Origin: an uncultured Bacteroidota bacterium | GTDB taxonomy: Bacteria > Bacteroidota > Bacteroidia > B-17B0 > Aurantibacillaceae | DNA: 64,000 nucleotides | Direction of reading: 5' to 3' | Assembly: GCA_903893815.1 (NCBI GenBank) | Contig: CAITNS010000053.1 | Location: 193,826 to 257,825 of the forward strand | Shown: in pieces, positions 15,969 to 30,162 of the stretch | Numbering within the stretch: the stretch's first letter is position 1 | How the letters are laid out: every line of letters starts with the position of its first letter | The notes under the pieces: generated by a model | What the model was told of the DNA's origin: nothing | The model's input: the letters and a program-made list of their open reading frames with translations, nothing else | Database searches by the model: none | Made by a program: the position numbers and the translations under genes

Positions 15969-16062
15969 TTCAACAAATTTTAAATAAAGTTAATTAATTT
16001 TAGTTAATTAGTGTAACCAATTAGGAGTTCCATAATTAATCTACTTAAATTGTATTGCTAAT

Positions 16063-17622
16063 ATGAACTTAATTTCAAACAGAGATTTATATGATTTAGT
16101 TAAATCCTTATCTAAATCAGAAAAACGGTTCTTAAAATTAACTGCTTCGGCAAGCGATATAAACCCAAATTTAATTACGCTATTTAATACCATTGAATTA
16201 TCGAACGATTTTAAAGAAGATTTTTACGCCAAAACATCTAAATCAAAAACGGAAACACTTCAAACCAAAAGTCAGACTTCCGAGAATTTATACAACTTTA
16301 TTTTAAAATGTTTACGATCTTTTCATGCCGAAAGTAGCGCCTCTTATGTTATTAAAGATGAAATTACCAATATTTTAAATTTATTTGACAAGGCTCAGTA
16401 TAAACAGTGTCGTAAAATTTTAAATAAACAAAAACAAGAAGCTTATCGTTTTGAACGTTTTCATTTTATTTTAGAGTTAATTGGACTGGAGAAATTATTA
16501 ATTTCTATTGAAACTCAATTCAATATTAAAAATAACACCATTGAGAATTTAGTAAAAGAAGAACTTGATGTGATTGAAAAAGCAAAAAACCTTGGAACCT
16601 ACACCCTTTTGTTTTCGAAAATAAATTTAAATACGCGTCAAAAAAATAAGGCTAAGACGGAGAAAGACATGGAAGTGATTAGTTCATTTCTAAATTCTCC
16701 TTTACTAAAAAACGACAAGCTCATAAAATCTTCAAAGGCATTAATCATTTACCATCATTGTCGTTCTATTTTATTTTGCAGATGCCAGGACAATCAAAGC
16801 AGAGAGGAAGAGTGTCAATTATTGCTGAATTTAATGGATAGTAATAAAGAATTAATTGAAGAAATGCCTAGCCGTTATTTAACTACTTTAAATAACTTAA
16901 TTAATATTGCTTATGAAGAAAGCAAATACAAAAGTTGTGATATCAGAGTAAAACAGCTAGAGGAAAAAGCTGATGTAAAAGCTTTTGGCACCACAGATTT
17001 ACAACTCAAAATAATTACTTCGGTATTAAATGGCAAATTAACAATTAATACCAACAGTGGTAAATTAAAGGAAGCAACAGAAAATGTATTGGAAATAGAG
17101 AAAGCACTTGAAACGTATGAAGGAAAAATAAATAAAGAAGAAGAGCTAGTATTCTATTACAATATTGCTATTATGAATACCTATTTTGGCAATTTCAAAA
17201 AAGCACAACACTACATTTCTTTAATTTTAAATGAAGGAAATAATCTATTACGCGAAGATTTACAATCCTTTGCAAGGATTATCAATATTGGCTTACACTA
17301 CGAGCTAAATAACTTTAAGCAATTAGGCTATATTATCTCAACCATTAAAAATTACTACAAAACTCAAATTTCTTATTTCAAAACCGAAAAACTAATTCTT
17401 TCCTACTTCGAAAAACTATCAGAAGTGAAAGTGAAAAATAAAGAACATGAAAAAGAAATATTTATAAGTTTTAAAAAAGATTTAGAAGAAGTTATGAAAG
17501 ATCCTCACGAAAAAAACGTGAGCTTTTATTTTGACATTGAAGTTTACATTGATTCAAAAATCAATCAAATTCCAATGCACCAATTAATGCAAAAAAAATA
17601 TGCCAAAGCCTGGTTAAAATAA
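16063..17622 (+). CDS. Unknown helical protein, first of a tandem paralogue pair
   Basis: I do not recognise this protein. It has 519 aa, no signal peptide or membrane segment, and is Lys/Glu/Leu/Asn-rich. The pattern is all-helical and resembles tetratricopeptide-type repeats (for example FYYNIAIMNTYFGNFKKAQHYISLIL at about 365-390; that pair of helices looks TPR-like). N-terminus: DLYDLVKSLSKSEKRFLKL. Residues about 85-150 (FILKCLRSFHAESSASYVIKDE onward) align with the next gene. A cytoplasmic scaffold or regulatory role is a guess. The downstream paralogue starts 12 bases after the stop, so they form an operon. It is divergently arranged with the M1 aminopeptidase. Confidence 0.75.
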   Translation: MNLISNRDLYDLVKSLSKSEKRFLKLTASASDINPNLITLFNTIELSNDFKEDFYAKTSKSKTETLQTKSQTSENLYNFILKCLRSFHAESSASYVIKDEITNILNLFDKAQYKQCRKILNKQKQEAYRFERFHFILELIGLEKLLISIETQFNIKNNTIENLVKEELDVIEKAKNLGTYTLLFSKINLNTRQKNKAKTEKDMEVISSFLNSPLLKNDKLIKSSKALIIYHHCRSILFCRCQDNQSREEECQLLLNLMDSNKELIEEMPSRYLTTLNNLINIAYEESKYKSCDIRVKQLEEKADVKAFGTTDLQLKIITSVLNGKLTINTNSGKLKEATENVLEIEKALETYEGKINKEEELVFYYNIAIMNTYFGNFKKAQHYISLILNEGNNLLREDLQSFARIINIGLHYELNNFKQLGYIISTIKNYYKTQISYFKTEKLILSYFEKLSEVKVKNKEHEKEIFISFKKDLEEVMKDPHEKNVSFYFDIEVYIDSKINQIPMHQLMQKKYAKAWLK

Positions 17623-17634
17623 TATGATCGAACG

Positions 17635-19176
17635 ATGAAACCAACCAACCAACTTTTTGACATCATTAAATCACTAACTCCAGAAGAGGAGAAAAAATTC
17701 ATATTACTTTCATCCTTACAACAAGGAGAAAAAAACTATATCAAGCTATATAACTTTATTCAAAAACAAGACAGTTATGATGAAGATGTGGTTAAAAGTC
17801 ATTTTAAAAATGAAATTTTTGTTCAACATTTTGCTTCCGAAAAAAATCAACTGTTACACCATATATTAAAAAGTTTACGCTTTCATCGCCAGGAAACCAG
17901 TGCTAGCGCTAAAATTGACGAAGAAATCAAAAATATACAATTACTATTTAATAAATCACTATACAAACAAGCGCGAAAACAATTAAGTATTATCAAAAAA
18001 ATGGCTCAAGATTATGAGTTATTTTACAGTTTACTTGAAATTGTGGAACTCGAAAAAGTACTGATTGATATGGAAGCTCATTTTGGAGATATCAATTACA
18101 AAACATTAGATGAACTGATTGAAGAAGAAAACGCTTTATTTGCAAAAATCGAAAACTTTGCAGCTTATGAGCTTCAACTAGCAAAATTAAACTCACTGTC
18201 TTCTCGTTTGATTATTGCACGTAGCAAAGATGATGTAAAAGAAATTACAGACATCATCAAGGAAACAAAACGTCTATCTAATCAGGATGGATTTTTATCT
18301 AATAAATCTAAAATTATTTTCTTGTTCATCATTGGCGTAGCAAATATGCTTCAAAATGAAATGGAAGAAGTCCATAAATCTTTTTCGGAATTAATTATTG
18401 AATTAGAAAATAAACCAGAAATCATTTCTGAAATGCCGTATTATTATATTGTTTCTCACGGATACTTAGTGCGCTATTGCGCCATTAAGAAACAATATAA
18501 TGACGGATTTAAAATGATTGATAAATTAAAATCATTGTCGCTAAACGAAATGTTTAAGGCTACTGATCTCCAAATCACTATTTTTTCTCAATCCTACATA
18601 ACCGAGATGGTCTTGTATTCCTATATTGGACAACACGATAAGGCAACCAATGTAATTCCTTATGTTATTAAAGGTTTAGATAAATACGAATCAAAAATTA
18701 ATAACGAAGATTTAGTGAGAATTTACCACACGATAAGTATGGTTTACTTTGGCGTTGGTGAATACAACAAAGCTTTACATTGGCTAAACAGAATTATCAA
18801 TACCAATTACGATGATTTAAGACAAGATGTGATTCGTATCTCGAAGCTTATCAATTTAATTGTACATTTTGAATTGGGCAATGATGATTTACTATCATAC
18901 ATCTATAAATCGAGTGTTCGTTTCTTTAACCAACAAGAAAAACAATATAAATTTGAAACGGTATTTTTAGATTACTTTAAAAAGATTGCTCTTTCTAAGC
19001 GTGATAGCAAGCAAAAAGAAACCTATATTAAATTTAAAGAAGAATTAGAAAAAGTATTTAAAGACAAATACGAAAAAAATGCTTTAGAGTATTTTAATTT
19101 TTATGCGTGGTTAGATTCTAAAATTCATAACATCAGTTTTGCTGATGCCATTAAAATTAGAAGACAGAATATTTAG
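17635..19176 (+). CDS. Unknown helical protein, second of a tandem paralogue pair
   Basis: 513 aa, clearly related to its upstream neighbour along its whole length. LFDIIKSLTPEEEKKFILL matches the neighbour's N-terminus, HILKSLRFHRQETSASAKIDEE matches the middle block, and YKQARKQLSIIKK and LEIVELEKVLIDMEAHF also match. The TPR-like part RIYHTISMVYFGVGEYNKAL sits at about 361-380, the same place as in the first copy. No signal peptide, membrane helix or catalytic motif is seen. The ends also match (KEELEKVFKDKYEKNALEYF against KKDLEEVMKDPHEKNVSFYF), so this is an old full-length duplication with marked divergence. Its stop is 1 base from the convergent MORN gene. Confidence 0.75.
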   Translation: MKPTNQLFDIIKSLTPEEEKKFILLSSLQQGEKNYIKLYNFIQKQDSYDEDVVKSHFKNEIFVQHFASEKNQLLHHILKSLRFHRQETSASAKIDEEIKNIQLLFNKSLYKQARKQLSIIKKMAQDYELFYSLLEIVELEKVLIDMEAHFGDINYKTLDELIEEENALFAKIENFAAYELQLAKLNSLSSRLIIARSKDDVKEITDIIKETKRLSNQDGFLSNKSKIIFLFIIGVANMLQNEMEEVHKSFSELIIELENKPEIISEMPYYYIVSHGYLVRYCAIKKQYNDGFKMIDKLKSLSLNEMFKATDLQITIFSQSYITEMVLYSYIGQHDKATNVIPYVIKGLDKYESKINNEDLVRIYHTISMVYFGVGEYNKALHWLNRIINTNYDDLRQDVIRISKLINLIVHFELGNDDLLSYIYKSSVRFFNQQEKQYKFETVFLDYFKKIALSKRDSKQKETYIKFKEELEKVFKDKYEKNALEYFNFYAWLDSKIHNISFADAIKIRRQNI

Positions 19177-19177
19177 T

Positions 19178-19675
19178 TTAATTCACCAAACCAGTTTCAA
19201 CACCCATTCTGTAAGCTCTTCTGTCAACTTCTTTACCTTTGTCATCATACCAAAACCAAAGACTATCTTTTTGATCTTGCTTATACCAACCCGAATACGT
19301 TAAATTTCCGTTGGGATAAAATACCTGTGTAGAACCATGCTTTATGCCTTTATCATAAAAACATTCACTCCATTTAATTCCATTATCATAAAAAGCCATC
19401 CATTGTCCGTGGCGCTGACCAAATCTAAAAAAGCCAGTAAATTTAATAACGCCATTTGGGTATTTATCTGTGTAATCACCAGTATAATCAGGATCTGGAG
19501 GAGTAATTAAATATTTATTTAGCTCATTTGCAATTTTTAATGAATCAGCTTTTGAAATAGACTTTAAAGAATCTTGCTTTACTTTTTCAGCGTCAGAGGC
19601 ACCACCTTTACAATTTGAAAAAAAGAATGTCAAACAAATTAAGCTCGCTGTTATAACTATGAATATATTTTTCAT
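19178..19675 (-). CDS. MORN-repeat lipoprotein
   Basis: Predicted lipoprotein of 165 aa. The signal (MKNIFIVITASLICLTFFFSNC) ends in lipobox FSNC. A Lys/Asp/Ser-rich linker follows. Residues about 70-150 hold MORN_2-type repeats: YPNGVIKFTGFFRFGQRHGQW, YDNGIKWSECFYDKGIKHGS and YPNGNLTYSGWYKQDQKDSLW. Such repeats are common in Bacteroidota surface and toxin-related proteins; the function here is unknown. It starts 6 bases after the polyprenyl synthase gene on the same strand, so it is probably co-transcribed with it. It converges with the paralogue pair. Confidence 0.85.
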   Translation of the reverse strand: MKNIFIVITASLICLTFFFSNCKGGASDAEKVKQDSLKSISKADSLKIANELNKYLITPPDPDYTGDYTDKYPNGVIKFTGFFRFGQRHGQWMAFYDNGIKWSECFYDKGIKHGSTQVFYPNGNLTYSGWYKQDQKDSLWFWYDDKGKEVDRRAYRMGVETGLVN

Positions 19676-19681
19676 TAGAAT

Positions 19682-20659
19682 TTATTTTTTTCGTTCGATT
19701 GAATAATTAACCAATTGTATTAAACTTTGTTTTGACGGGCTATCCTCAACAGACGCTAACTGCGCTAGTGCATTATCCTTGTATTGGTGCATTACTTTTT
19801 CAGCGTATTTAATACCACCTTTTTCAATGACAAAGGAAATAACTTCTGCTACTTTTTTCGGATCATCGTTATGATTTTTAACGATGTTGATGATTTTACG
19901 TTTCTCTAACCATGTACTATTATTTAGTGCATAAATTAAAGGCAAGGTCATTTTCTTTTCTTTGATATCAATACCTGTTGGCTTACCTATAGAAGTATCA
20001 TCACCAAAATCAAATAAATCATCTTTAATTTGAAATGCTATTCCTGTATTAATTCCGAATTCCTTGAATTGATTAATTATTTTTTCGTCGGTAGTAACAG
20101 ATGCTACACCTGCAGCGCAACAAGCGGCAATTAAGGCTGCTGTTTTTTTAGTAATAATTTCAAAGTATATTTCTTCTGATATATCAAGTTTTCTAGCTTT
20201 TTCTATTTGAAGCAATTCGCCCTCGCTCATTTCACGAACGGCAGTACTCACAATTTTCAGTAAATGAAAATCATTATTATCTAAGGATAATAATAAGCCA
20301 CTTGATAATAAAAAATCTCCAATTAAAACGGCGATTTTATTTTTCCATAAAGCATTTACACTAAAAAAACCGCGACGCTCATTACTATCATCCACTACAT
20401 CATCGTGAACCAAAGTAGCAGTGTGTAATAATTCAATTAAGGATGCCGCTCTGTAAGAACTATCGTTAATCGTTCCTGCACTTTGCGCACTTAAAAACAC
20501 AAACATAGGACGAATTTGTTTGCCTTTGCGTTTGACAATATAATTAGTGATTTTATCAAGTAATGGCACACTACTTTTCATGGATTGTTTGAATTTAATT
20601 TCAAACTCATCCATGTGGTGGTTAATGGGCGCTTTTATTTGATCTACAACGTTACTCAC
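19682..20659 (-). CDS. ispB: Trans-polyprenyl diphosphate synthase
   Basis: Elongates isoprenoid diphosphates with IPP, probably making the side chain of menaquinone; chain length cannot be read from the sequence. It has 325 aa. The first Asp-rich motif is HTATLVHDDVVDDS (DDxxD) with a downstream ERRG. The second is FQIKDDLFDFGDD. GKQIRPMFVFL near residue 45 binds substrate phosphate. The start is GTG at 20659; no ATG is better placed. It works downstream of Dxr in isoprenoid synthesis. The MORN lipoprotein gene follows within 6 bases. Confidence 0.92.
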   Translation of the reverse strand: MSNVVDQIKAPINHHMDEFEIKFKQSMKSSVPLLDKITNYIVKRKGKQIRPMFVFLSAQSAGTINDSSYRAASLIELLHTATLVHDDVVDDSNERRGFFSVNALWKNKIAVLIGDFLLSSGLLLSLDNNDFHLLKIVSTAVREMSEGELLQIEKARKLDISEEIYFEIITKKTAALIAACCAAGVASVTTDEKIINQFKEFGINTGIAFQIKDDLFDFGDDTSIGKPTGIDIKEKKMTLPLIYALNNSTWLEKRKIINIVKNHNDDPKKVAEVISFVIEKGGIKYAEKVMHQYKDNALAQLASVEDSPSKQSLIQLVNYSIERKK

Positions 20660-20981
20660 TTTTTAATTGACGTAAATATATGGTTTAAAAGCCTGATTTT
20701 ACAATACTTATTTCACATTTGTTATGTATTAAGTTTTTTTAACCACATAGATAAATAAGTTTTATCTAGTTAGCTAAAAGCAGAAAAGTAAGGCAACATA
20801 GCAGGTAAGAGGCGCTTCCCTATGTGATACTTATAATTTCAAAAACTCCAATCATCTATCTTATCTATGTAATATATGTGGTTATTTTTTTGCAAAAAAA
20901 ATCCCTCCGCCAGTGGCGGAAGGATTTTTACGCAATTTATAAAAGTTTAACCCTTAATTATACCCTAGTCAATTGCTTATC
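20660..20981. repeat. 322-bp gap with an ACCACATAG inverted-repeat element
   Basis: No gene is seen. AACCACATAGATAA at 20741-20754 and TTATCTATGTAATATATGTGGTT at 20861-20883 are related in inverted orientation. They enclose about 105 bases that hold a GC-richer core (CAGGTAAGAGGCGCTTCCC). This looks like a small non-coding repeat element. The terminator of the next gene (20894-20930) lies beside it. Confidence 0.5.
20894..20930 (-). terminator. Intrinsic terminator after the 145-residue unknown gene
   Basis: AAATCC..TCCGCCA pairs with TGGCGGA..GGATTT, with A and T runs on both sides, so it can act in both directions. It lies 51 bases past the stop at 20982. Confidence 0.85.
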
Positions 20982-21419
20982 TTAATTTAAACTAATAGCA
21001 GGAATTTTTCCTTCTTTAATTAAATTTAATGTTTTTTGTTTATGATCTTCAAAACTTCCAAATGCTAATGCATCTAACATTTCTGTACGAGACATGTTTG
21101 GATTTCCGAATTGTTTTTTGATATCTTCAGAACAACGATCAACGTATTTTTCAAATTTATTTGGAGCCCATAAATAATCTTTCTTTACAGCTTCTTTCTC
21201 AATTTTAAATTCTTCCGGTAAACCACCTTCAATTTTTGATTTAATATCTAAACCTTCATAAGATTTTGGTAATTGACGATTATCAAATAAAAACGGCTTA
21301 GAAATCATGATGACATGTTTCTTACGTTTTGGATCTATCATTGATAAACCTTCGATTCTTAGTCCCTTTTTCTTAAGAGAACCGAATTTACTTTCAAAGT
21401 TTTTTAAAATCTCGAACAT
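20982..21419 (-). CDS. Unknown conserved-looking cytoplasmic protein, 145 aa
   Basis: I do not recognise it. It is a basic, soluble protein without signal peptide or membrane helix. The N-terminal helix MFEILKNFESKFGSLKKKG is followed by a strand-rich part (GLRIEGLSMIDPKRKKHVIMISKPFLF) and a helical C-terminus containing MSRTEMLDALAFGSFEDHKQKTLNLI. It has its own candidate -7 box at 21443-21450, an intrinsic terminator, and a set of repeats upstream (21508-21549). So it looks like a separately regulated single-gene unit. It sits between the polyprenyl synthase and the double Ddl gene, all on the same strand. Confidence 0.75.
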   Translation of the reverse strand: MFEILKNFESKFGSLKKKGLRIEGLSMIDPKRKKHVIMISKPFLFDNRQLPKSYEGLDIKSKIEGGLPEEFKIEKEAVKKDYLWAPNKFEKYVDRCSEDIKKQFGNPNMSRTEMLDALAFGSFEDHKQKTLNLIKEGKIPAISLN

Positions 21420-21442
21420 GGCAGTATAGTTACAGTTATTAA

Positions 21443-21450
21443 CAAAGGTA
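21443..21450 (-). promoter_or_regulatory. Candidate -7 box (TACCTTTG) for the 145-residue gene
   Basis: The minus strand reads TACCTTTG, a match to TAnnTTTG, 24 bases before the ATG at 21419. No strong -33 TTG is evident at standard spacing. Confidence 0.5.
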
Positions 21451-21507
21451 AACGCAAAATTGTTAATAAACTAACTTATTAGACGAAGACATCGAAATAA
21501 CCCTACC

Positions 21508-21549
21508 AAAATATGTTCAAAATATGTTTCTTACGTGTTAATTACACGT
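21508..21549. promoter_or_regulatory. Tandem AAAATATGTT boxes and an ACGTGT palindrome
   Basis: AAAATATGTT occurs twice (21508-21517 and 21519-21528), followed by ACGTGT-TAATT-ACACGT (21533-21549). They lie 58-100 bases upstream of the candidate -7 box at 21443-21450, so they may bind an activator of the 145-residue gene. No regulator is identified. Confidence 0.4.
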
Positions 21550-21634
21550 TAAAAAGAGGTTAATTATATTTATAAATTATTGAATATCAATATTTTATAA
21601 ATAATTAAAGCACTTGTTTAAAACCCAAAATGCT

Positions 21635-24355
21635 TTAACTCAAAACTAGGGCACTTTTTTGAGCTCCGAAGTCTAAAATTCGATCAATAAAACTATAAGG
21701 TTTATATCCATTAATAGCTGCTTGGTGATAAATGCAAGTTGCAGGCGTCATACCTGGTAACGAGTTGACCTCTATGAAGATAACTTCCACATGGTGCACA
21801 TCAAATATTCTCACAAAAGCATCAATTCGACAGTAGCCAACAATATTCAACACCTTTGCAGCGACTCCTAAAGTCTCTTTTACTTTATTAGAAATCAACT
21901 GCCTTTCTTTTTCATCTCGTGAATAACGAGCAGGCGTAATATTTTGTCCTTGACCTGCCAAGAATTTCTCTTCCAAACTTAATATTTCACCACTTGCTAA
22001 TGCTTCTGATGCTTCAAACACCTCATACTCCACTTCTCCTTTTGCGTTCAACTTGGTTAACATACCGCCTGTTATTTCTAAGAAATGCTTAGCGCCATTT
22101 TTACTAATTAATTCTTCAACTAATAAAACAGTTTTTTGAGGAAATTCTTCTTTATCCTTAATGTGCAATATTTCTGCTGACTTAGCATCAAAAGCTTCCG
22201 AACTTCTAAATATCAAAGTTGCAAAGGCTTCAAACTCTTCAAAACTTTTAATCATTTTAACAGCACTACTACATCCATCATCTACCGGTTTTGCAATTAA
22301 GGGATACACGTAATTGTTTTGTAAAGTTAGCTTAACCTTGTCTTTATTATTTTTCCAATCATCATTTGTAATTAAACAATGTTTTGCTGCTAAGAAACCA
22401 TGTTTCATTAAAATTTCGTTGGTTCTAAATTTATCTATGGTAATGGATGAACTTTCTTTTCCAGAACCATTATAAGTTAAACCAACAGCTTCTAATTTTT
22501 CCTGAATAGCACCATCTTCTCCAGGACGGCCATGTAAAGCGATAAACACTTGTTTTACTTCTTTAGCTAAATCCGCATAGCTTAATTGTTTTGGTGCAAT
22601 TAAATTATTTGGTGAACCATATTTATCAGTAATGGTTTTACACTCTGCAATAATTTGTTTGACTACTGGATGTATTTTCCAATTGTTGACTTTATCTTTA
22701 ATATCATCCGCATTATCTTTTAATAAAGCATTGATAGGAATTTGATACATTAAATGATTCGCATTATCACCCGTTAAAAAAACTGGTATTGGCGAATATT
22801 TTTCTGATGATGCTAATTTTTCAAAAATATTTCTTCCGCTTTCAACTGAGATATGTCGCTCAGAAGAATAACCACCTAATATAACCGCTACTGGAATTTT
22901 ATTATTGATCGCATTTTTTTCATCATCTAAAAACGTATCCAATTTATGTAATAATGTTTCGTAAATAAATGCTCCTTTAGAATTTTTAATGCGCTTACTT
23001 AAAGATGTACGAATAATATAAGTCAGGAATTGAGAAGGCGTTAAGCCAATTTCTGCTGCTTGATGAAAGAAGAAAGAAGACGGCATCATTCCAGATGTGG
23101 TGTTTGGATCATTTAAAAATACTTTACCATCAGTACTTAAAAAACCATCAATACGAGCATAAACATCAAAACATAATTCAGAGAATAAACGTTCGCATTC
23201 TTTTCTGATAGCATTAATTTGTTCGTCTGTTGCTTCTATAGGCGTTATCTTGCGAGATAAGCCTGGTAAATATTTGCTACGGTAATCAAATAATTCTTTT
23301 CCTTTTCTGATTTCGGTTGGAGGTAGTGCAACCGCAACATTATTAGAATCCGTATCTTCCAATACAATACAAGAAAATTCTTTCCCTTCAATAAATCCTT
23401 CAATAATCACCGTGCTTTCTCCATCTAATGCTTGTAAAACAACGTTATGAGTATTGCTACAATGTGCATTTAGAAAATCAATTAATTCGTATTGATTGTA
23501 GAAAACTATTTCGTTTACTTTATTGTTACTCAGGCTAACATTTACTTTCACAGGCATTCCAATGCCTTCACGAATATCGGAGACAGTTCTGATGTAATCA
23601 ATTTTAGCCGCGTCGGATAATGATTGCCAATAAGTACCGTCGATCCATTTTAAAAATAATGCTTTTTCGATGGTTGATATAAATAATAATTCGGCTTCGG
23701 TACTTAAAATAGATATACCAATTGACGAACCTTGATTAGCTGGCTTAATAACCATTGGGAAACCAATTTCTGATTTGGCTTTTTCCCAAACACCTTTTGC
23801 ATTTCCACTAATCCAATCGGTTCTATCAATGGTAAAATATTTAGGACTATTAAATCCTGCATTCACCATTAATTTTTTCTGAACGCTTTTATCAATACCA
23901 ATGGCACTTGGCAAAATTCCGCTACCTGAATAGGGAATGTGTAAATATTCTAAAAGTCCTTGTATACGACCATCTTCACCATAAGGGCCATGTAATGCTA
24001 AAAAAGCAAAATCAATTAAAGAGCCTAATTCATGTGCTTGAATTTTTTTTCCAATTTTAGAAATTAACTCGTCTTGTTGCTTAACATTAAGATTACCAAG
24101 GTTTTCGGCGTAGTATTGAAAATCTGTATTAGTAGCTGGAATAAATTCTACTGGAGGATAAAAATCACGAATCGTTCCTTTGTATACAAAGTTCCAATCC
24201 AATAGTACAAAATTTCCAAAAGAATCAACAAATAATGGGATAGCTTCGAAAATAGATTTATTTAAATTATCATAAACAGTTCTTCCACCTGCAAAAGAAA
24301 TTTCACGTTCCTTTGAACGACCACCAAACAGAATTCCAACTTTAATTTTAGACAT
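21635..24355 (-). CDS. ddl: Double-length D-alanine-D-alanine ligase (two fused ATP-grasp Ddl modules)
   Basis: Ddl joins two D-alanines for peptidoglycan using ATP and Mg2+. Usual Ddl proteins have 300-370 aa; this one has 906 and reads as two Ddl modules in one frame. Module 1 (1-455): LFGGRSKEREIS at 9-20, ALHGPYGEDGRIQGLLE at 120-136, KPANQGSSIGIS at 204-215, LPPTEI at 344-349, RID at 401-403 and LNDPNTTSGM at 414-423. Module 2 (487-898): ILGGYSSERHIS at 492-503, ALHGRPGEDGAIQ at 606-618, AKPVDDGCSSAV at 688-699, RID at 843-845 and FIEVNSLPGMTP at 860-871. In module 1 the metal-site Glu is replaced by Asp416 and the PGM turn is changed, so module 2 keeps the more canonical metal site. Module 1 also has an insert at about 235-310. 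Which module is active is unknown. The ATG at 24355 is unambiguous. Confidence 0.92.
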   Translation of the reverse strand: MSKIKVGILFGGRSKEREISFAGGRTVYDNLNKSIFEAIPLFVDSFGNFVLLDWNFVYKGTIRDFYPPVEFIPATNTDFQYYAENLGNLNVKQQDELISKIGKKIQAHELGSLIDFAFLALHGPYGEDGRIQGLLEYLHIPYSGSGILPSAIGIDKSVQKKLMVNAGFNSPKYFTIDRTDWISGNAKGVWEKAKSEIGFPMVIKPANQGSSIGISILSTEAELLFISTIEKALFLKWIDGTYWQSLSDAAKIDYIRTVSDIREGIGMPVKVNVSLSNNKVNEIVFYNQYELIDFLNAHCSNTHNVVLQALDGESTVIIEGFIEGKEFSCIVLEDTDSNNVAVALPPTEIRKGKELFDYRSKYLPGLSRKITPIEATDEQINAIRKECERLFSELCFDVYARIDGFLSTDGKVFLNDPNTTSGMMPSSFFFHQAAEIGLTPSQFLTYIIRTSLSKRIKNSKGAFIYETLLHKLDTFLDDEKNAINNKIPVAVILGGYSSERHISVESGRNIFEKLASSEKYSPIPVFLTGDNANHLMYQIPINALLKDNADDIKDKVNNWKIHPVVKQIIAECKTITDKYGSPNNLIAPKQLSYADLAKEVKQVFIALHGRPGEDGAIQEKLEAVGLTYNGSGKESSSITIDKFRTNEILMKHGFLAAKHCLITNDDWKNNKDKVKLTLQNNYVYPLIAKPVDDGCSSAVKMIKSFEEFEAFATLIFRSSEAFDAKSAEILHIKDKEEFPQKTVLLVEELISKNGAKHFLEITGGMLTKLNAKGEVEYEVFEASEALASGEILSLEEKFLAGQGQNITPARYSRDEKERQLISNKVKETLGVAAKVLNIVGYCRIDAFVRIFDVHHVEVIFIEVNSLPGMTPATCIYHQAAINGYKPYSFIDRILDFGAQKSALVLS

Positions 24356-24360
24356 TGTAA

Positions 24361-24394
24361 GTTTCTAGTTATTAAGTTATAAGTTTCTGGTTAA
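24361..24394. repeat. AGTTATAAGTTTCTGG-type degenerate heptad repeat
   Basis: Just upstream of the double ddl, GTTTCTAGTTATTAAGTTATAAGTTTCTGGTTAA shows a 7-8-base periodicity around AGTT. Similar stretches occur at 45047-45075, and inside the dnaE coding region near 44340-44372. Confidence 0.4.
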
Positions 24395-24497
24395 ACAAAA
24401 ACTATAAAAATATTACAAGAATAAAGTTAAGATAGATACCTAAGGAATTAATTAGGCATAGTAGAAACTATGAACTAAAGAATGTTAAATAAATCCT

Positions 24498-25580
24498 CTA
24501 AAAACACTCTCCAATAGTAAAGTAAAAACCACGGTTATAGTTATCAGAATAACCATAATCTACTCTTAAGTTCAACTTTTCTTTTTCAATGATTGATAAT
24601 CTTAATCCTCCACCAAAACTGCCTTTTAAACTACCAGTGTTTATACTTTTTGGCTGATTATACACATCGCCTACTCCGCCAAATACGCATGCGCTTATTC
24701 GCCAATAAATATGAGCACGGTATTCTACAATAGCGGAATACATCGAATTATCTCTAAATCGTCCGGTATAAAAACCTCTCAAATTTCCAGCTCCTCCAAG
24801 TGTAGCCATCGAGCGATAAGGCGTTTGGCCAAAAGTTGAATAATTATATAACTGACAGGCCAAAATATGTCCTTTAGCTATTTGTTTAAATAAACGTACT
24901 TCGGCGGTCCATTTATTAAACGAATAGGTTGAAGCAAGTTCTTTATTATAAGTTGTAAATTGAGTTTGCAAAAACACCCCTTTAGTTGGCCAAAAGGTTG
25001 AGTTTCGGGTATCATAGCTTGCTGAAACTCCAATACCTGCTTCGTTATAACTTGCTTTCCCAAAAAAAGAAATAGAATCCATTAAACCTCCTTCTGAATA
25101 TTGTATTCTAAATACATTTTGATAATCCGCTAAAATTCCAAAAAAAGTATGTTTAAAAAATTTTCGTTTGATGTGAGATGATACAACTACATTTTCAAAC
25201 ACATAACGCTCTAAGTCTGTGTTTTTTGAATTTTGTCCTATGCCCCAAAAATTATCAGGAAAATAACTATGTGATGTATTAAAGTATAAAATGTATTTTT
25301 CCTTAGGAAAATAAATGGTGGCATCTAAGCCTTGAATATTTTGTTGCCTTTCTGAAAAAATTCCTAAAGCTGTAATAACCGACGTTCTAGTTAAGGTATC
25401 GTTTTTATAACTTGTTTTAAAATTAGCAGATGCGGATAAACCATACGCCCAACCTGTTTCGGGTGTTTTAAACAAGATTGGAATAGCTAAATAATTTACT
25501 CTCCTAGCTGTATCAATCCTAAATTGTGCAACAAGCACAACAGGAAAAAAGATAATGAGTATGAGGAATTTTAGTTGCAA
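24498..25580 (-). CDS. Omp85-type outer-membrane beta-barrel protein
   Basis: Outer-membrane barrel related to the C-terminal (surface antigen D15) domain of BamA/TamA; 360 aa. The signal peptide is at residues 1-19 (ending VVLVAQ). The barrel carries the Omp85 hallmark GGAGNLRGFYTGRFRD (about 262-277), corresponding to the VRGF/RFRD loop motif, and ends in an aromatic YFTIGECF. There are no POTRA domains, so a direct BamA role is unlikely; such short barrels often accompany patatin-like or other passengers. The start is TTG 25580, the only start codon between the signal peptide and the upstream in-frame stop. It starts 41 bases after the nuclease gene on the same strand. Confidence 0.85.
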   Translation of the reverse strand: MQLKFLILIIFFPVVLVAQFRIDTARRVNYLAIPILFKTPETGWAYGLSASANFKTSYKNDTLTRTSVITALGIFSERQQNIQGLDATIYFPKEKYILYFNTSHSYFPDNFWGIGQNSKNTDLERYVFENVVVSSHIKRKFFKHTFFGILADYQNVFRIQYSEGGLMDSISFFGKASYNEAGIGVSASYDTRNSTFWPTKGVFLQTQFTTYNKELASTYSFNKWTAEVRLFKQIAKGHILACQLYNYSTFGQTPYRSMATLGGAGNLRGFYTGRFRDNSMYSAIVEYRAHIYWRISACVFGGVGDVYNQPKSINTGSLKGSFGGGLRLSIIEKEKLNLRVDYGYSDNYNRGFYFTIGECF

Positions 25581-25621
25581 ATTGAATTTAAAGATAGAAA
25601 ATTATAACTCAGAAAAATCAA

Positions 25622-27097
25622 TTACAATCCTAATTTACTGTTAAAGAAATTCAGTAATTGATAAGTAATTAACGCATCCATTTCACAGTAATCAACCAAT
25701 TGCTGTTTAATATGTTCAGACTCAATCGCATTTTGTTCTAACAAACTTTCATAAATATACATGGCACTAATGCCAGACTGTACATCCAAATTATTAAAAC
25801 CTGCTTCTTTATTCACTAAAGGCGCAATACTCTTTAATGTAAAATTACCTTTCATATCTGGATGGTAATAATTTCCTTTTCTAATTGGCTCTGCTAAATC
25901 AATAATCTTGTTTTTGAAATCGGTAATATCATTACTGAATTCAGGATATAATACTGCCAATTGATTCAAAACAGTTTCTTCTAAAGATTTATCAAACATT
26001 AAAATAGATTGAAAATCTTTTGTAACTAATAAAATATGTTCTAAAAATTCTTTTCGTAAATCTTCTTCAATAGGTTTAAAATAACTATAGTTTTTTATAT
26101 CGCCATTTTCCTCAGAAATCATGGAAAACAAAAAGGGAATTTGCTGAAATGGCTTTGTGCCATTATAGTATGGAATAGCAGGCATCCATACTTCAATATC
26201 TAAACTACAAACTGGTTGTTTGATGTTTGATATAAATGCTTTTATTTCTTCTTCAAAAATTTGTTCTTTGTTTTCAATCGCTGCTTTAACCTGAATTTTA
26301 ATTTCTTTATGTTGAATTGTACTTATATCTATTTCATCAATGCGTTTTATGTTTTGATCATACAATTCAAACATAGCTTGCTTGGTTAATTTACCAAGCG
26401 TTAAAACAGAGTTTGGTTCATTGATATTTTTCCAGCAAGTGCCTAAAAAATCACATTCGTAAGGTTGAAAACAATGCGCCCCTATTTTTATATCAGGAAT
26501 TTTATTTTGCTCCAAAGTTAATTTAGCAATTTGTGTTTTATGCGCGAAATAGCTAACGTTTTTTAAAGCATCCTTCATAATAGAAGTTGTTTTAAATAGT
26601 TTTTGAATTTCTAATTCACCCTCTAAAACATATTTAGGATTCATGGTTAGTAAATTAAAATCTACTAAATCGGGTAGACAATTTTTAATCACATAATATT
26701 GAAAGCATGCATCTTTCACATAAGTTTCTGTAATTTTTAAAGAGCTTTTTACTTCATAAGCAATCCATCGATCATCTTGTTTATGAATAATATCAACCAT
26801 TACTAATAAGTCATCAAAAATAAAAGTGGCTTCGTAAATGGTTTTGGTTCCTAGGGCAATTAAGTGTTTTGTTTTTTCGGCAAACATTTGCTGGTCTCTT
26901 TTTTCGCCAGCGGTTACATCAATTCCGTCTGGAAATAATTGTTGCGCAAAAATCCCAACATCTGTTCCTCTTTTAAAAATCAATTGTTTTTCTTTTGACA
27001 AGGAGTCACGTAAATAATAATGATTTTTATAAAGAAAAAAATGTTTTAAACATTGCTCAGCTTTAATAAAAGCAGATTTACTAATTGGTGAACTCAT
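25622..27097 (-). CDS. DUF2779 protein: RecB/Cas4-like nuclease domain fused to an RNase H-like domain
   Basis: Predicted nuclease of 491 aa. The N-terminal part (about 1-220) looks like a PD-(D/E)xK fold: MVDIIHK then WIAYEVKSSLKI holds the D...ExK signature. EQCLKHF near the N-terminus together with HCFQPYECDFLGTCW gives four Cys placed as in Cas4/AddB iron-sulfur nucleases. The C-terminal part (about 285-480) fits DUF2779, an RNase H/DnaQ-like domain: CSLDIEVWMPAIPYYNGTKP, then YCEMDALITYQL near the end. The biological role of the family is not established. I chose ATG 27097, which forms an ATGA overlap with the stop of the upstream glycosyltransferase, over 27121. No cas genes are nearby. 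Confidence 0.82.
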   Translation of the reverse strand: MSSPISKSAFIKAEQCLKHFFLYKNHYYLRDSLSKEKQLIFKRGTDVGIFAQQLFPDGIDVTAGEKRDQQMFAEKTKHLIALGTKTIYEATFIFDDLLVMVDIIHKQDDRWIAYEVKSSLKITETYVKDACFQYYVIKNCLPDLVDFNLLTMNPKYVLEGELEIQKLFKTTSIMKDALKNVSYFAHKTQIAKLTLEQNKIPDIKIGAHCFQPYECDFLGTCWKNINEPNSVLTLGKLTKQAMFELYDQNIKRIDEIDISTIQHKEIKIQVKAAIENKEQIFEEEIKAFISNIKQPVCSLDIEVWMPAIPYYNGTKPFQQIPFLFSMISEENGDIKNYSYFKPIEEDLRKEFLEHILLVTKDFQSILMFDKSLEETVLNQLAVLYPEFSNDITDFKNKIIDLAEPIRKGNYYHPDMKGNFTLKSIAPLVNKEAGFNNLDVQSGISAMYIYESLLEQNAIESEHIKQQLVDYCEMDALITYQLLNFFNSKLGL

Positions 27098-28215
27098 AAA
27101 CACTTGGTAATGCTGTTCCAAAGCAGGTCTGCTGATTTATCCCATGAGAAGCAATCTTTTTGTGTTTTACCTTTTTTAATTAATTGATTTCGCAGATTAA
27201 CATTGTGATATAATTCTATCATTCCATCACTAATGCTTGTCACTTCATAAGGATTAATTAGTAATCCTGCATCACCTGCAATTTCAGGCATACTGGTTGT
27301 TTTGCTGCATATTACTGGAATTTCGCATTGCAATGCTTCCACAATAGGAATTCCGAAACCTTCAAAGTATGGAACAAATGTCAATGCAAAAGCACTTGCC
27401 ATAATTTTTTCTAACTCTTCTTGAGGTTGTCTTCCAGTAAAGATAATATTGTTTTTAAATTTCGATTTATCAATCACTCGCTTCACATCTCCCTCACTCG
27501 AATAAACAGCGCCTACTAATACTAATTTGTAATCTGATTGTGTTTGCTCTTTAAACAAATCAAAAGCAGCAATGAGCCTGTTTAAATTTTTACGTGGACT
27601 TTGAGAACCTACAAATAAAAAATAAGGTTTACCTTGTGAGAATTTATCTCTTATAATTTGTTGTGATGGTTCTGATAAAGGAACAAATCCTTCGTTAATG
27701 CCATTATATACTACATCAATTTTATTTGCATCAATCTGATAGTTTTCCGAAATATCAGCTTTACTATATTCAGATACCGTGGCAATACGTGTAGCTAATT
27801 TTGCATATTTCGGAAAAAAGTGATTATAATATTTACTCGTTAAAGGTTTTAAATCTTTAGGATTGTGTAAAAAATTAATATCATGAATGACTGGCAATTG
27901 TCTGCATTTAGCGCCAGGAGATAAAAAACCGTCGGGAGATAAAAACAAATCTGGATTCATACGGTTTAATAAATTTTTAACCGACATGTGAAACCATGCA
28001 TAATATAAAAAAGGATGGCGTGCTTGAGGTCCTAAAACTAAAGGAGTAATATTGTCAGAGAAAATAAATTCATCATCATAATCTCGGTCAAATAAAAAAA
28101 CAAAATGCACATCCGGATTATTTTGGGTCATGCGTTTTAGTGTTTGATAACTAAACCACCCAATGCCATCTAATTTATTTTTTAGTAATAAGCGAGTATT
28201 GACTACTATTTGCAA
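27094..28215 (-). CDS. Glycosyltransferase family 4
   Basis: Cytoplasmic GT-B glycosyltransferase of 373 aa, using a nucleotide sugar to extend a surface polysaccharide or lipid; the exact substrate cannot be read. The C-terminal donor domain shows YFLFVGSQSPRKNLNRLI, IIFTGRQPQEEL and VPYFEGFGIPIVEAL, which holds the E(x7)E motif of GT4. The N-terminal acceptor domain includes PVIHDINFLHNP. The start is TTG 28215: an in-frame TAA lies two codons upstream and no ATG fits. Its TGA overlaps the ATG of the DUF2779 gene (ATGA), so the two are translationally coupled. Confidence 0.88.
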   Translation of the reverse strand: MQIVVNTRLLLKNKLDGIGWFSYQTLKRMTQNNPDVHFVFLFDRDYDDEFIFSDNITPLVLGPQARHPFLYYAWFHMSVKNLLNRMNPDLFLSPDGFLSPGAKCRQLPVIHDINFLHNPKDLKPLTSKYYNHFFPKYAKLATRIATVSEYSKADISENYQIDANKIDVVYNGINEGFVPLSEPSQQIIRDKFSQGKPYFLFVGSQSPRKNLNRLIAAFDLFKEQTQSDYKLVLVGAVYSSEGDVKRVIDKSKFKNNIIFTGRQPQEELEKIMASAFALTFVPYFEGFGIPIVEALQCEIPVICSKTTSMPEIAGDAGLLINPYEVTSISDGMIELYHNVNLRNQLIKKGKTQKDCFSWDKSADLLWNSITKCL

Positions 28216-28296
28216 GTATTAAATTTTACTGCAAAATAAGGGAAATTTTATACTTAAAAAATTGATTTATCTATTTTATTTACGATAAAAATCATA

Positions 28297-30162
28297 TTAA
28301 ACCAACACTAAAGGTATGTCTATTTTATGACGAACACTTTCTACCGTTGTACCAAACAATAAGTCTTTAAAAGTAGTATGTCCGTGAGTACCCATTACCA
28401 GCAAATCACAGTCTTTTACTAAATCAGGAATGACTGTTTTAGGTCGGCCAAAGCCTAGTTGAAATTCACAAAAATAACCTTGCTCTATTAATTGGTTTTT
28501 ATACGCTAATAGATTCTCACTGTCTTCATTTCGTTCAAAATCATTAGTTTCCTCGCCATACATGACGGCATTGGTACTTTCTAAAACATGGATTAAAACA
28601 TATTGTGCATTTTTACCACCAAGCTGTAAGGCCTTATTAATGGCTTTACTATCACTGCTACTAAAGTCAACTGTAATGGCAATTGAAGAATAGGCTTTTG
28701 GTGTTTCAAATTTAATTTTAGGCACATCTCCATGAAACTGAGAAGATAAGGTTTGTTTATGTTTTTTAAATAATGGCTCAAAAGTGATATATAGTAAAAT
28801 ACCTAAACACAAAATCATAAAAGGAACTACAATTGCGCCAATCAAAATAGCATATTCAGAATCTTGCAACCATTCTTTCACCTTATTAAATAGCATTTGG
28901 CAGTTTAAAAACACAATCACTGAAACAGAAATCCACGAAGCAATTTTTTGCCACATCGGAATCGTAAATTCTCCCATGCGTTTTTTATTACTTACAAAAT
29001 GAATTAAAGGAATAATCGCAAAGCCTAATTGTAAACTTAAAATTACCTGACTTAATACTAATAAGTCGCCTGTTTTTTCTTCGCCTAAAAAATAAATGGT
29101 TAAAAATGCAGGAACAATAGCGATTAAACGTGTCAGCAATCTGCGAATCCAAGGTTGTAATCTCAAATTCAAATAACCTTCCATGATAACTTGTCCTGCT
29201 AAGGTACCCGTAACCGTTGAGCTTTGTCCTGCCGCAATTAAAGCAATAGCAAACAATAAAGGAGCTAACGTACTTCCTAACATAGGTGCCATCATTTTAT
29301 GTGCATCTTGTATTTCTGTGACTTCAACTCCAGTATTAAAAAAAGTACTTGCCGCAATAATTAAAATAGCAGCGTTTACAAACAACGCTAAATTCAATGC
29401 CACAGCACTATCAATGATATTAAAGCGAATGGCTTTTTTTATTTCAACTGGTGTTCGTTCAAACTGGCGCGTTTGAACTAAAGAAGAATGCAGATATAAA
29501 TTATGAGGCATTACCGTAGCGCCAATAATTCCAATAGCAATGTATAGTGCATTTTCGTTAGTAAATCCTGGTATTAAACCTTTCGAAATTTCAACAATAT
29601 CAGGCTTGGCAATTAATAATTGAATAAAAAAGGAAACGCCAATAATCGCTACTAGAGAAATAATAAACGCTTCTAATTTTCGAATTCCTGCATTCAATAA
29701 AAACAAGAGAACAAAACTATCTAGAACCGTAATACAAACACCACCTAAAATAGAAATGGAAGGAAACAATAAATGAATACCGATAGCCATACCCACAACT
29801 TCCGCCAAATCACATGCTGCAATAGCTATTTCGGCTAACACATATAAAAAATAATTGATAAATTTTGAGTAATGGTCTTTAGAAGCCTGTGCTAAATCTC
29901 GTCCAGAAACTACTCCTAATCTTATACAGTGACTTTGAAGCAAGAGAGCAATTAAATTACTCATCACTAACACCCAAATTAAACTGTAGCCGTATTTACT
30001 TCCACCTTCAATATCCGTTGCCCAGTTTCCTGGGTCCATGTAGCCAACACTAATCATGTAGGCTGGACCAATAAAGGCTAATAGTTTTCGGAAACCTCCT
30101 TTCCTAGAAGTGTTTACAGAAGAATGAACTTCATCTAAAGATTTATGTGAATTAGCTGACAA
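28297..30162 (-). CDS. mntH: Nramp-family Mn2+/Fe2+ transporter fused to a UspA domain
   Basis: Inner-membrane proton-coupled divalent metal importer of 621 aa, against about 420 for plain MntH. The Nramp part (about 25-470) has the TM1 metal site in YMDPGNWATDIEGG and the TM6 site in GATVMPHNLYLHSSL, with about 11 helices. From about 490 a universal stress protein domain begins (KAYSSIAITVDFSSSDSKA). It ends with the nucleotide-binding signature MGTHGHTTFKDLLFGTTVESV and VPLVLV-like IDIPLVLV. The soluble domain may sense nucleotides and tune transport; this is inference. The start is TTG at 30162, directly abutting the TAA of lptB, so translation is probably coupled. No ATG precedes TM1. Confidence 0.92.
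   Translation of the reverse strand: MSANSHKSLDEVHSSVNTSRKGGFRKLLAFIGPAYMISVGYMDPGNWATDIEGGSKYGYSLIWVLVMSNLIALLLQSHCIRLGVVSGRDLAQASKDHYSKFINYFLYVLAEIAIAACDLAEVVGMAIGIHLLFPSISILGGVCITVLDSFVLLFLLNAGIRKLEAFIISLVAIIGVSFFIQLLIAKPDIVEISKGLIPGFTNENALYIAIGIIGATVMPHNLYLHSSLVQTRQFERTPVEIKKAIRFNIIDSAVALNLALFVNAAILIIAASTFFNTGVEVTEIQDAHKMMAPMLGSTLAPLLFAIALIAAGQSSTVTGTLAGQVIMEGYLNLRLQPWIRRLLTRLIAIVPAFLTIYFLGEEKTGDLLVLSQVILSLQLGFAIIPLIHFVSNKKRMGEFTIPMWQKIASWISVSVIVFLNCQMLFNKVKEWLQDSEYAILIGAIVVPFMILCLGILLYITFEPLFKKHKQTLSSQFHGDVPKIKFETPKAYSSIAITVDFSSSDSKAINKALQLGGKNAQYVLIHVLESTNAVMYGEETNDFERNEDSENLLAYKNQLIEQGYFCEFQLGFGRPKTVIPDLVKDCDLLVMGTHGHTTFKDLLFGTTVESVRHKIDIPLVLV

Follow-up and report, generated by a model that had tools for sequence, protein, structure and literature searches.

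The subject of this analysis is a gene that encodes two D-alanine-D-alanine ligase (Ddl) modules in one 906-residue chain. It lies on a 64,000-nucleotide stretch of DNA, hereafter the window, from an uncultured Bacteroidota bacterium of the Aurantibacillaceae (assembly GCA_903893815.1, contig CAITNS010000053.1, positions 193,826 to 257,825). Ddl is an essential and heavily studied antibiotic target and, to our knowledge, the bacterial enzyme has been described with one Ddl module per chain. We found that the two-module protein is the only recognisable Ddl of the window genome, that the double form is the ordinary Ddl of many families rather than a curiosity of one genome, and that its two active sites differ by residues that are fixed across the double proteins compared. 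The reading that we favour, with a probability of about 0.5, is that this sole recognisable Ddl descends from one old fusion in which module 1 makes D-Ala-D-Ala, while module 2 is a conserved ligase, probably active, whose second substrate has changed.

The whole gene (906 codons plus stop, 21635..24355) is an open reading frame (ORF) on the minus strand, with its ATG at 24355 and its stop codon at 21635-21637; the plus-strand reading of the same interval contains many stops. Its assignment was made from the ORF itself, from Pfam and NCBIfam matches, and from alignment with DdlB of E. coli. On the 906-residue protein, Pfam detected Dala_Dala_lig_N in two stretches and Dala_Dala_lig_C in four (whole-protein E-values of 1.4e-48 and 1.2e-52). 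When the halves were searched separately against the NCBIfam Ddl models, both matched, with best E-values of 1.7e-67 for the N-terminal half and 5.9e-42 for the C-terminal half, although either half alone scores under the curated cut-offs. An earlier note on this DNA had proposed two complete modules from duplicated motifs and had suggested such separate searches. The motifs were found exactly where it placed them, GG(x)SxER(x)IS with its last residue at 20 and 503, LHGxxGEDGxxQ at 121-132 and 607-618, and RID...N at 401-418 and 843-864, and the two complete modules are borne out by Pfam, NCBIfam, and the predicted folds alike. From alignment and predicted structure, module 1 comprises residues 1-463 (22967..24355, minus strand, as for all features below) and module 2 residues 485-906 (21638..22903), each with a Ddl fold. 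They are joined by a helical linker at residues 464-484 (22904..22966), which corresponds to a predicted helix at 463-485. Compared with DdlB, module 1 carries an insert of 77 residues in its ATP-grasp region (about residues 234-310, 23420..23659), which the earlier note had located at about 235-310, and module 2 carries inserts at residues 526-584 and 717-738. The first of these lies in the module-2 N-subdomain (residues 485-585, 22601..22903), the sole part of module 2 that remains, in eroded form, in one family described below.

The structure of the full chain, which the earlier note had proposed to predict, was then considered. The model, built with 43 of 58 non-redundant relatives, was confident, with a mean predicted local distance difference test score (pLDDT) of 82.8 and a predicted template modelling score (pTM) of 0.85, and both halves were Ddl-like. 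Module 1 matched Ddl structures with Z-scores up to 34.9 (7u9k, root-mean-square deviation 2.4, 326 aligned), and module 2, folded alone with 38 relatives, up to 33.1 (3i12, DdlA, root-mean-square deviation 2.9, 323 aligned). The model suggests a defined arrangement of the two modules. The earlier note had taken the fusion to fix a heterodimer of the usual Ddl type. For this, we used the Ddl dimer-face positions given in the part of PMC6899670 that we draw on, moved to DdlB positions 74, 88, and 92 by an offset of 7 derived from alignments. In 53 representative doubles, module 1 has mostly Gly (51), Ile (45), and Ala (44) at these positions, whereas module 2 is variable there and often charged at 74. 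In single Ddls, the face is only partly conserved (Gly 21, Val 17, and Ala 21 of 30). Because the dimer-face residues are mostly kept in module 1 and are variable in module 2, an intrachain copy of the Ddl homodimer appears unlikely, and the heterodimer within one chain was rejected as it had been stated, on the basis of these sequence positions; a different packing of the two modules is conceivable. The chains may instead dimerise through module 1.

To define how widely the double form occurs, we looked at three sets of genomes. Within the genus and family of the window genome, which is itself included, the double form was detected in 24 of 25 genomes, with some copies cut at contig ends; the single miss, G019, is 76% complete. 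That search also covered 16 genomes from other families, of which seven had the double form and nine had only single-type matches. A draw across the class gave a strong match (E-value 3.5e-93 or better, the next match being at 1.4e-25) in 130 of 296 genomes and, with families counted by eye, in 37 of 72 families; two of the 130, G236 and G273, carry the truncated form described below. A draw across the phylum gave strong matches in five of 198 genomes; these include the window genome and all fall within this class. The class and phylum draws are composed differently, and neither can be taken as a natural frequency. The best 25 phylum matches listed are likewise all of that class, a statement that does not extend to other classes. 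Copies cut or split by contig ends include those of G204, G257, G248, G290, G144, G081, G041, and G064. The families labelled f42, f51, and f61 hold both single-Ddl and double-Ddl genomes. In a tree made from 27 of the 53 representatives together with the window protein, three separate groups were recovered: module 2 (support 100/100), module 1 with the proteins of a family labelled f66 (100/99), and the single Ddls (99/95). In our best explanation, the two-module form descends from one old fusion. The earlier note had named as a refutation that the double form be the ordinary, already characterised Ddl of its clade. The first half of this holds, as the 130 of 296 genomes show, but none of the matches listed from the open-licence literature describes such a form in bacteria.

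We next consider whether the double form stands in for the usual enzyme. The window genome gave 11 matches to PF07478, four of which belong to the double Ddl protein. The remaining seven all belong to different ATP-grasp enzymes (two biotin carboxylases, PurT, cyanophycin synthetase, RimK, PurK, and PurD), so that, with all PF07478 matches examined, no Ddl was found in this genome besides the double, an outcome of the whole-genome comparison that the earlier note had called for. The cyanophycin synthetase-like protein of the window genome is encoded at L007:802-3252 (G000 C59). The same genome carries a stand-alone MurF as well as a MurF-alanine racemase fusion (L224 and L225; G000 C66 and C58), a pair that is usual in this phylum. 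In 46 chosen genomes of the class, TIGR01205 detected a single Ddl in 34, the double or f66 form in 11, neither in one, and both in none. The genome with neither form, G046 of family f23, is 91% complete, and its congener G087 has a single Ddl. Since families f42, f51, and f61 mix singles and doubles, the double appears to cover the ordinary Ddl function.

The active sites were compared residue by residue, with numbers such as 150, 216, and 270 referring to E. coli DdlB by alignment. The 132 full doubles reduced to 121 distinct sequences (100 clusters at 85% identity and 53 at 70%), to which the window protein is additional; L154 and partial copies that failed the coverage limits were left out of the alignment, and two f66 proteins were added separately. 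In the window protein, module 1 keeps the equivalents of E15, H63, K97, K144, S150, K215, Y216, R255, D257, and N272. Its Ser210 (23726..23728) corresponds to Ser150 and its Tyr362 (23270..23272) to Tyr216, and these are Ser and Tyr, respectively, in 121/121 doubles. At the metal site of module 1, D257 and N272 are kept and the ligand Glu270 is replaced by Asp416 (23108..23110), as the earlier note had seen. This position is Asp in 121/121 doubles and in 32/32 f66 proteins, and Glu in 30/30 single Ddls; it is a conservative ligand change, and module 1 is classed as a Ddl that carries it. The turn that the note had described as a changed PGM reads TSGMM. Across the 121 doubles, module 1 keeps Ser150, Tyr212, Lys215, and Tyr216, with Glu270 changed to Asp and Pro275 to Ser. 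Module 2 shows another set of changes in the same proteins, Ser150 to Cys, Tyr212 to Leu, Tyr216 to Phe, and Ser281 to Thr. In the window protein, the first and third of these are Cys695 (22271..22273) and Phe798 (21962..21964), Cys and Phe in 121/121 doubles. The earlier note had spoken of an altered middle in module 2, which is accounted for by the two inserts together with these two residues that it did not name. The metal site of module 2 is canonical, as had been claimed, with the equivalents of Asp257, Glu270, and Asn272 kept; Glu862 (21770..21772) stands at Glu270 and is Glu in 121/121 doubles. Invariant in module 2 of these doubles are K97, K144, E180, E187, K215, R255, D257, E270, N272, and G276, and both modules keep E15, H63, R255, and N272, with Ser or Thr at position 281. 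As a comparison, all 30 single Ddls examined have Ser150, Tyr216, Glu270, Pro275, and Ser281.

Module 2 is under equal or stronger constraint than module 1. Over the 53 representatives, the mean pairwise identity was 0.508 for module 1 and 0.537 for module 2, and 0.248 between modules 1 and 2 within a protein. Against L081, the nonsynonymous and synonymous rates (dN/dS, NG86) were 0.086/0.789 in module 1 and 0.020/0.714 in module 2; against L046, they were 0.095/0.978 and 0.023/0.642. Of the seven pairs computed, only these two, the nearest, have synonymous rates under 1 for each module and were used; the pair with L013 yielded no module-2 value. Because the tested ATP and metal residues are kept and the constraint is equal or stronger, these sequences argue that module 2 is not a dead copy, and in fold and in intact ATP and metal residues it belongs with the Ddl superfamily.

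The changed positions are those linked to the choice of second substrate. According to the excerpt of PMC7691350, Ddls whose sole product is D-Ala-D-Ala conserve Ser150 and Tyr216, replacement of these residues gave DdlB a weak D-Ala-D-Lac activity, and LmDdl2, a D-lactate ligase, has Ala at position 150. Excerpts of PMC5996685, with F261Y of the Leuconostoc enzyme as an example, and of PMC8807649 both state that an active-site Phe or Tyr decides between depsipeptide and dipeptide activity. Module 2 is changed at both specificity positions and module 1 at neither. With Cys and Phe in 121/121 doubles, module 2 lacks the Ser150 and Tyr216 of the dipeptide ligases, and it has in all of them the Phe of the Phe-type depsipeptide ligases. 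PDB 1iow, the Y216F mutant of DdlB, was the second-best PDB match of module 2, just above the wild type, a small effect. We propose that module 1 would make D-Ala-D-Ala and that the second substrate to which module 2 would join D-Ala, or a D-amino acid resembling it, is most likely not D-Ala itself; D-lactate or another D-hydroxy acid would be the first candidate. The earlier note had suggested that the modules may have different substrates. This is supported by the difference between the active sites, S150/Y216 against C150/F216 in 121/121 doubles, which makes different substrates or roles likely. For D-lactate from genome context, we looked at VanX-like dipeptidases (PF01427), which would remove D-Ala-D-Ala. 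The window genome carries one, and the content of such genes does not separate double from single genomes, so that D-lactate as deduced from genome context was rejected.

Family f66 can be regarded as a natural deletion experiment on module 2. In 59 of its 61 genomes, the match spans module 1 and stops early in module 2, between query residues 523 and 606; the two remaining genomes are less complete (66% and 88%). The open frames are of 555-677 residues, six of the matches carry one flagged stop within the matched stretch, and no separate gene for the remainder of module 2 was reported in the f66 genomes. Two f66 sequences are nested in the module-1 clade of the tree (98/94), and because of this nesting the family has most simply lost the remainder of module 2. 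The tails form a series that runs from a strand still recognisable, its GG motif broken, down to near loss, with the region of the 526-584 insert mostly kept. In the 32 f66 proteins aligned (32/32), 15/15 other catalytic positions are kept, with Asp270 and with Pro at 275. When 22 f66 genomes were searched with NF002378, the f66 protein was the only match above 59 bits in 17, and module 1 with the stump therefore seems to be enough for D-Ala-D-Ala in most genomes of this family. Judged in the same way, the module-2 reaction, if any, seems dispensable in this family. A Ddl-like ATP-grasp protein of about 330 residues, present beside the f66 protein in the other five (L227:299-1279, L228:659-1636, L229:184-1191), matches PF07478 and ATP-grasp_3, has no Dala_Dala_lig_N, and scores far below the Ddl cut-offs.

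Several observations weigh against the favoured reading. The loss in f66, together with the mix of singles and doubles in f42, f51, and f61, means that the module-2 product is not indispensable. Five of the 22 f66 genomes carry this extra Ddl-like ATP-grasp protein, and the count of 17 of 22 covers matches above 59 bits, below which there are weaker ATP-grasp matches. G013 has, in addition to its double, a single-type Ddl near the end of another contig (C52:44-787), which may be either contamination or a true second Ddl. With Asp as the metal ligand at 270, module 1 could be a slow enzyme, and the Cys150 of module 2 differs from the Ala named for LmDdl2 in the excerpt cited above. VanX-like dipeptidases were found in 10 of 37 double genomes against 11 of 32 single and 7 of 7 f66 genomes; as they are no commoner in double genomes, context lends D-lactate no support. 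Finally, none of 32 f66 loci, which have short flanks, has any of the PASTA, RdgB, or RluD neighbours described below for the double gene.

Other explanations of the same data have to be weighed as well. It is possible, if on balance doubtful, that module 2 binds ATP and D-Ala and yet has a regulatory or structural role, sensing the substrate or supporting the module-1 fold, with its own ligation weak or absent. This would fit the loss of both hydroxyls of the E15-S150-Y216 network, the f66 proteins, in which only the module-2 N-subdomain with its insert region is retained, resembling a structural partner of module 1, and a two-module model that is confident overall. A pure scaffold, however, would have no need of the ATP- and metal-site residues from K97 to G276 that are invariant in module 2, and the constraint on this module is at least that of module 1. 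We hold it distinctly unlikely that both modules make D-Ala-D-Ala and that the fusion merely raises dosage or stability. Such redundancy could be read from the residues E15, H63, R255, and N272, with Ser or Thr at 281, that both modules share, and from the families f42, f51, and f61, in which the double seems exchangeable with an ordinary Ddl in either direction; but S150C and Y216F, in 121/121 doubles and at exactly the two positions that the cited excerpts tie to substrate choice, would be unexpected in redundant copies.

Very unlikely, in our view, is that the modules act one after the other on a product that outgrows the dipeptide, as do the two ATP-grasp halves in carbamoyl-phosphate synthetase. 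ATP residues are kept at both sites and CarB offers a precedent, at least in the excerpt of PMC11915815; against this, 17 of 22 f66 genomes apparently have no Ddl other than module 1 with a fragment, and within families single and double Ddls take each other's place, so that no special product seems needed for growth. An assembly artefact, or a missed stop joining two ordinary ddl genes, has next to no probability left. In some genomes a contig end does cut the copy or divide it between contigs, but 121 further distinct full-length doubles come from many assemblies and families, and module 2 forms one clade while module 1 with f66 forms another, so that two separate genes, the refutation that the earlier note had named, are ruled out by the survey. 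We return to the favoured reading, one old fusion with a D-Ala-D-Ala-forming module 1 and a probably active, altered module 2. Among the families of the class that were drawn, a large proportion use a two-module form with a fixed difference in substrate residues. If module 2 is active, these bacteria would have an undescribed cell-wall building reaction, and if it is regulatory, a natural two-site control of the D-Ala-D-Ala supply. The strict division of residues between the modules and the family that shed most of module 2 are new observations, and the form is apparently an undescribed variant of a central enzyme.

The neighbourhood of the gene agrees in part with a Ddl identity. Among 81 loci, 27 placements of a PASTA-like gene on the downstream side of the double ddl were recorded, at a median distance of +3 bp; the PASTA domain was confirmed by Pfam only in G460, and the other neighbours were linked to the G460 domain by phmmer. 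In G460 (L190:2742-6338), a double Ddl, a hydrophobic, probably membrane, stretch, and the PASTA domain are contained in one 1200-residue ORF. PASTA-like ORFs were also seen in 14 of 32 single-Ddl loci and in 17 of 65 loci of other doubles of the class; the flanks in both sets are mostly short. Genes that we take, from their sequences, to be RdgB-like and RluD-like stand upstream in 36/81 loci and downstream in 21/81 loci, respectively. The window gene has no PASTA neighbour within 16000-30000. It is adjoined by an Omp85-superfamily gene and by a conserved ORF of 145 residues (20982-21419, minus strand), which is without a Pfam match and which, counting the window, lies downstream of the double gene in 14 of 81 loci.

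Among known systems, the closest comparison is with E. coli DdlB (PDB 2dln/1iow; TIGR01205, PF01820 + PF07478). Each module matches it in sequence and in predicted fold, with the ATP and most metal residues kept. Unlike DdlB, the protein studied here has two modules per chain, with Asp at 270 and Ser at 275 in module 1, Cys150, Phe216, Leu212, and Thr281 in module 2, and larger inserts of 57-77 residues. The double and single Ddl loci are alike in that a PASTA-like gene adjoins part of the loci in both. Fusion of a Ddl to another cell-wall enzyme domain is seen in the bifunctional MurC-Ddl (NF011171), which is known from chlamydiae; there, the partner is MurC, and the window protein scores 168.6 bits against a cut-off of 1015. 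None of the Van ligase cut-offs was reached among the 25 families listed, the best Van-type score being 251.3 against 495 (VanG), with VanA at 155.5 against 775. With the Phe-type D-Ala-D-Lac ligases (LmDdl2 of Leuconostoc, PDB 1ehi, and Lactobacillus Ddl), module 2 shares the Phe at the Tyr216 position, as far as the excerpts cited above describe them. It differs from LmDdl2 in having Cys at the Ser150 position and in being fused to a Tyr-type module, it is no nearer to LmDdl2 in fold (Z-score 32.2, among the top matches but tied with D-Ala-D-Ala ligases, against 33.1 for DdlA), and 1ehi stands far down its sequence match lists. CarB, according to the excerpt of PMC11915815, provides an earlier case of internal duplication in an ATP-grasp enzyme; no tandem enzyme such as CarB was among the structure matches listed for either module, which is no proof of absence.

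The plastid DDL of land plants (Arabidopsis and Physcomitrium) is, in the available text of PMC9954125, also a fusion of two putative DDL enzymes, found across the plant lineage, and the activity of the fused Arabidopsis DDL is there described as not settled. The moss Ddl is reported to be closest to homologues of the Fibrobacteres-Chlorobi-Bacteroidetes group, in the corresponding excerpt of PMC9434261. A more far-reaching proposal would combine the two lines: a bifunctional ligase, with D-Ala-D-Ala made by module 1 and D-Ala-D-X by module 2 (X being D-lactate or another D-hydroxy or D-amino acid), would give many members of the class two constitutive peptidoglycan termini, and the double DDL of land-plant plastids would derive by gene transfer from this bacterial fusion. 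We regard this combination as speculative and rather improbable. The bacterial double Ddl offers a testable parallel to, and perhaps the source of, the fused DDL of plants.

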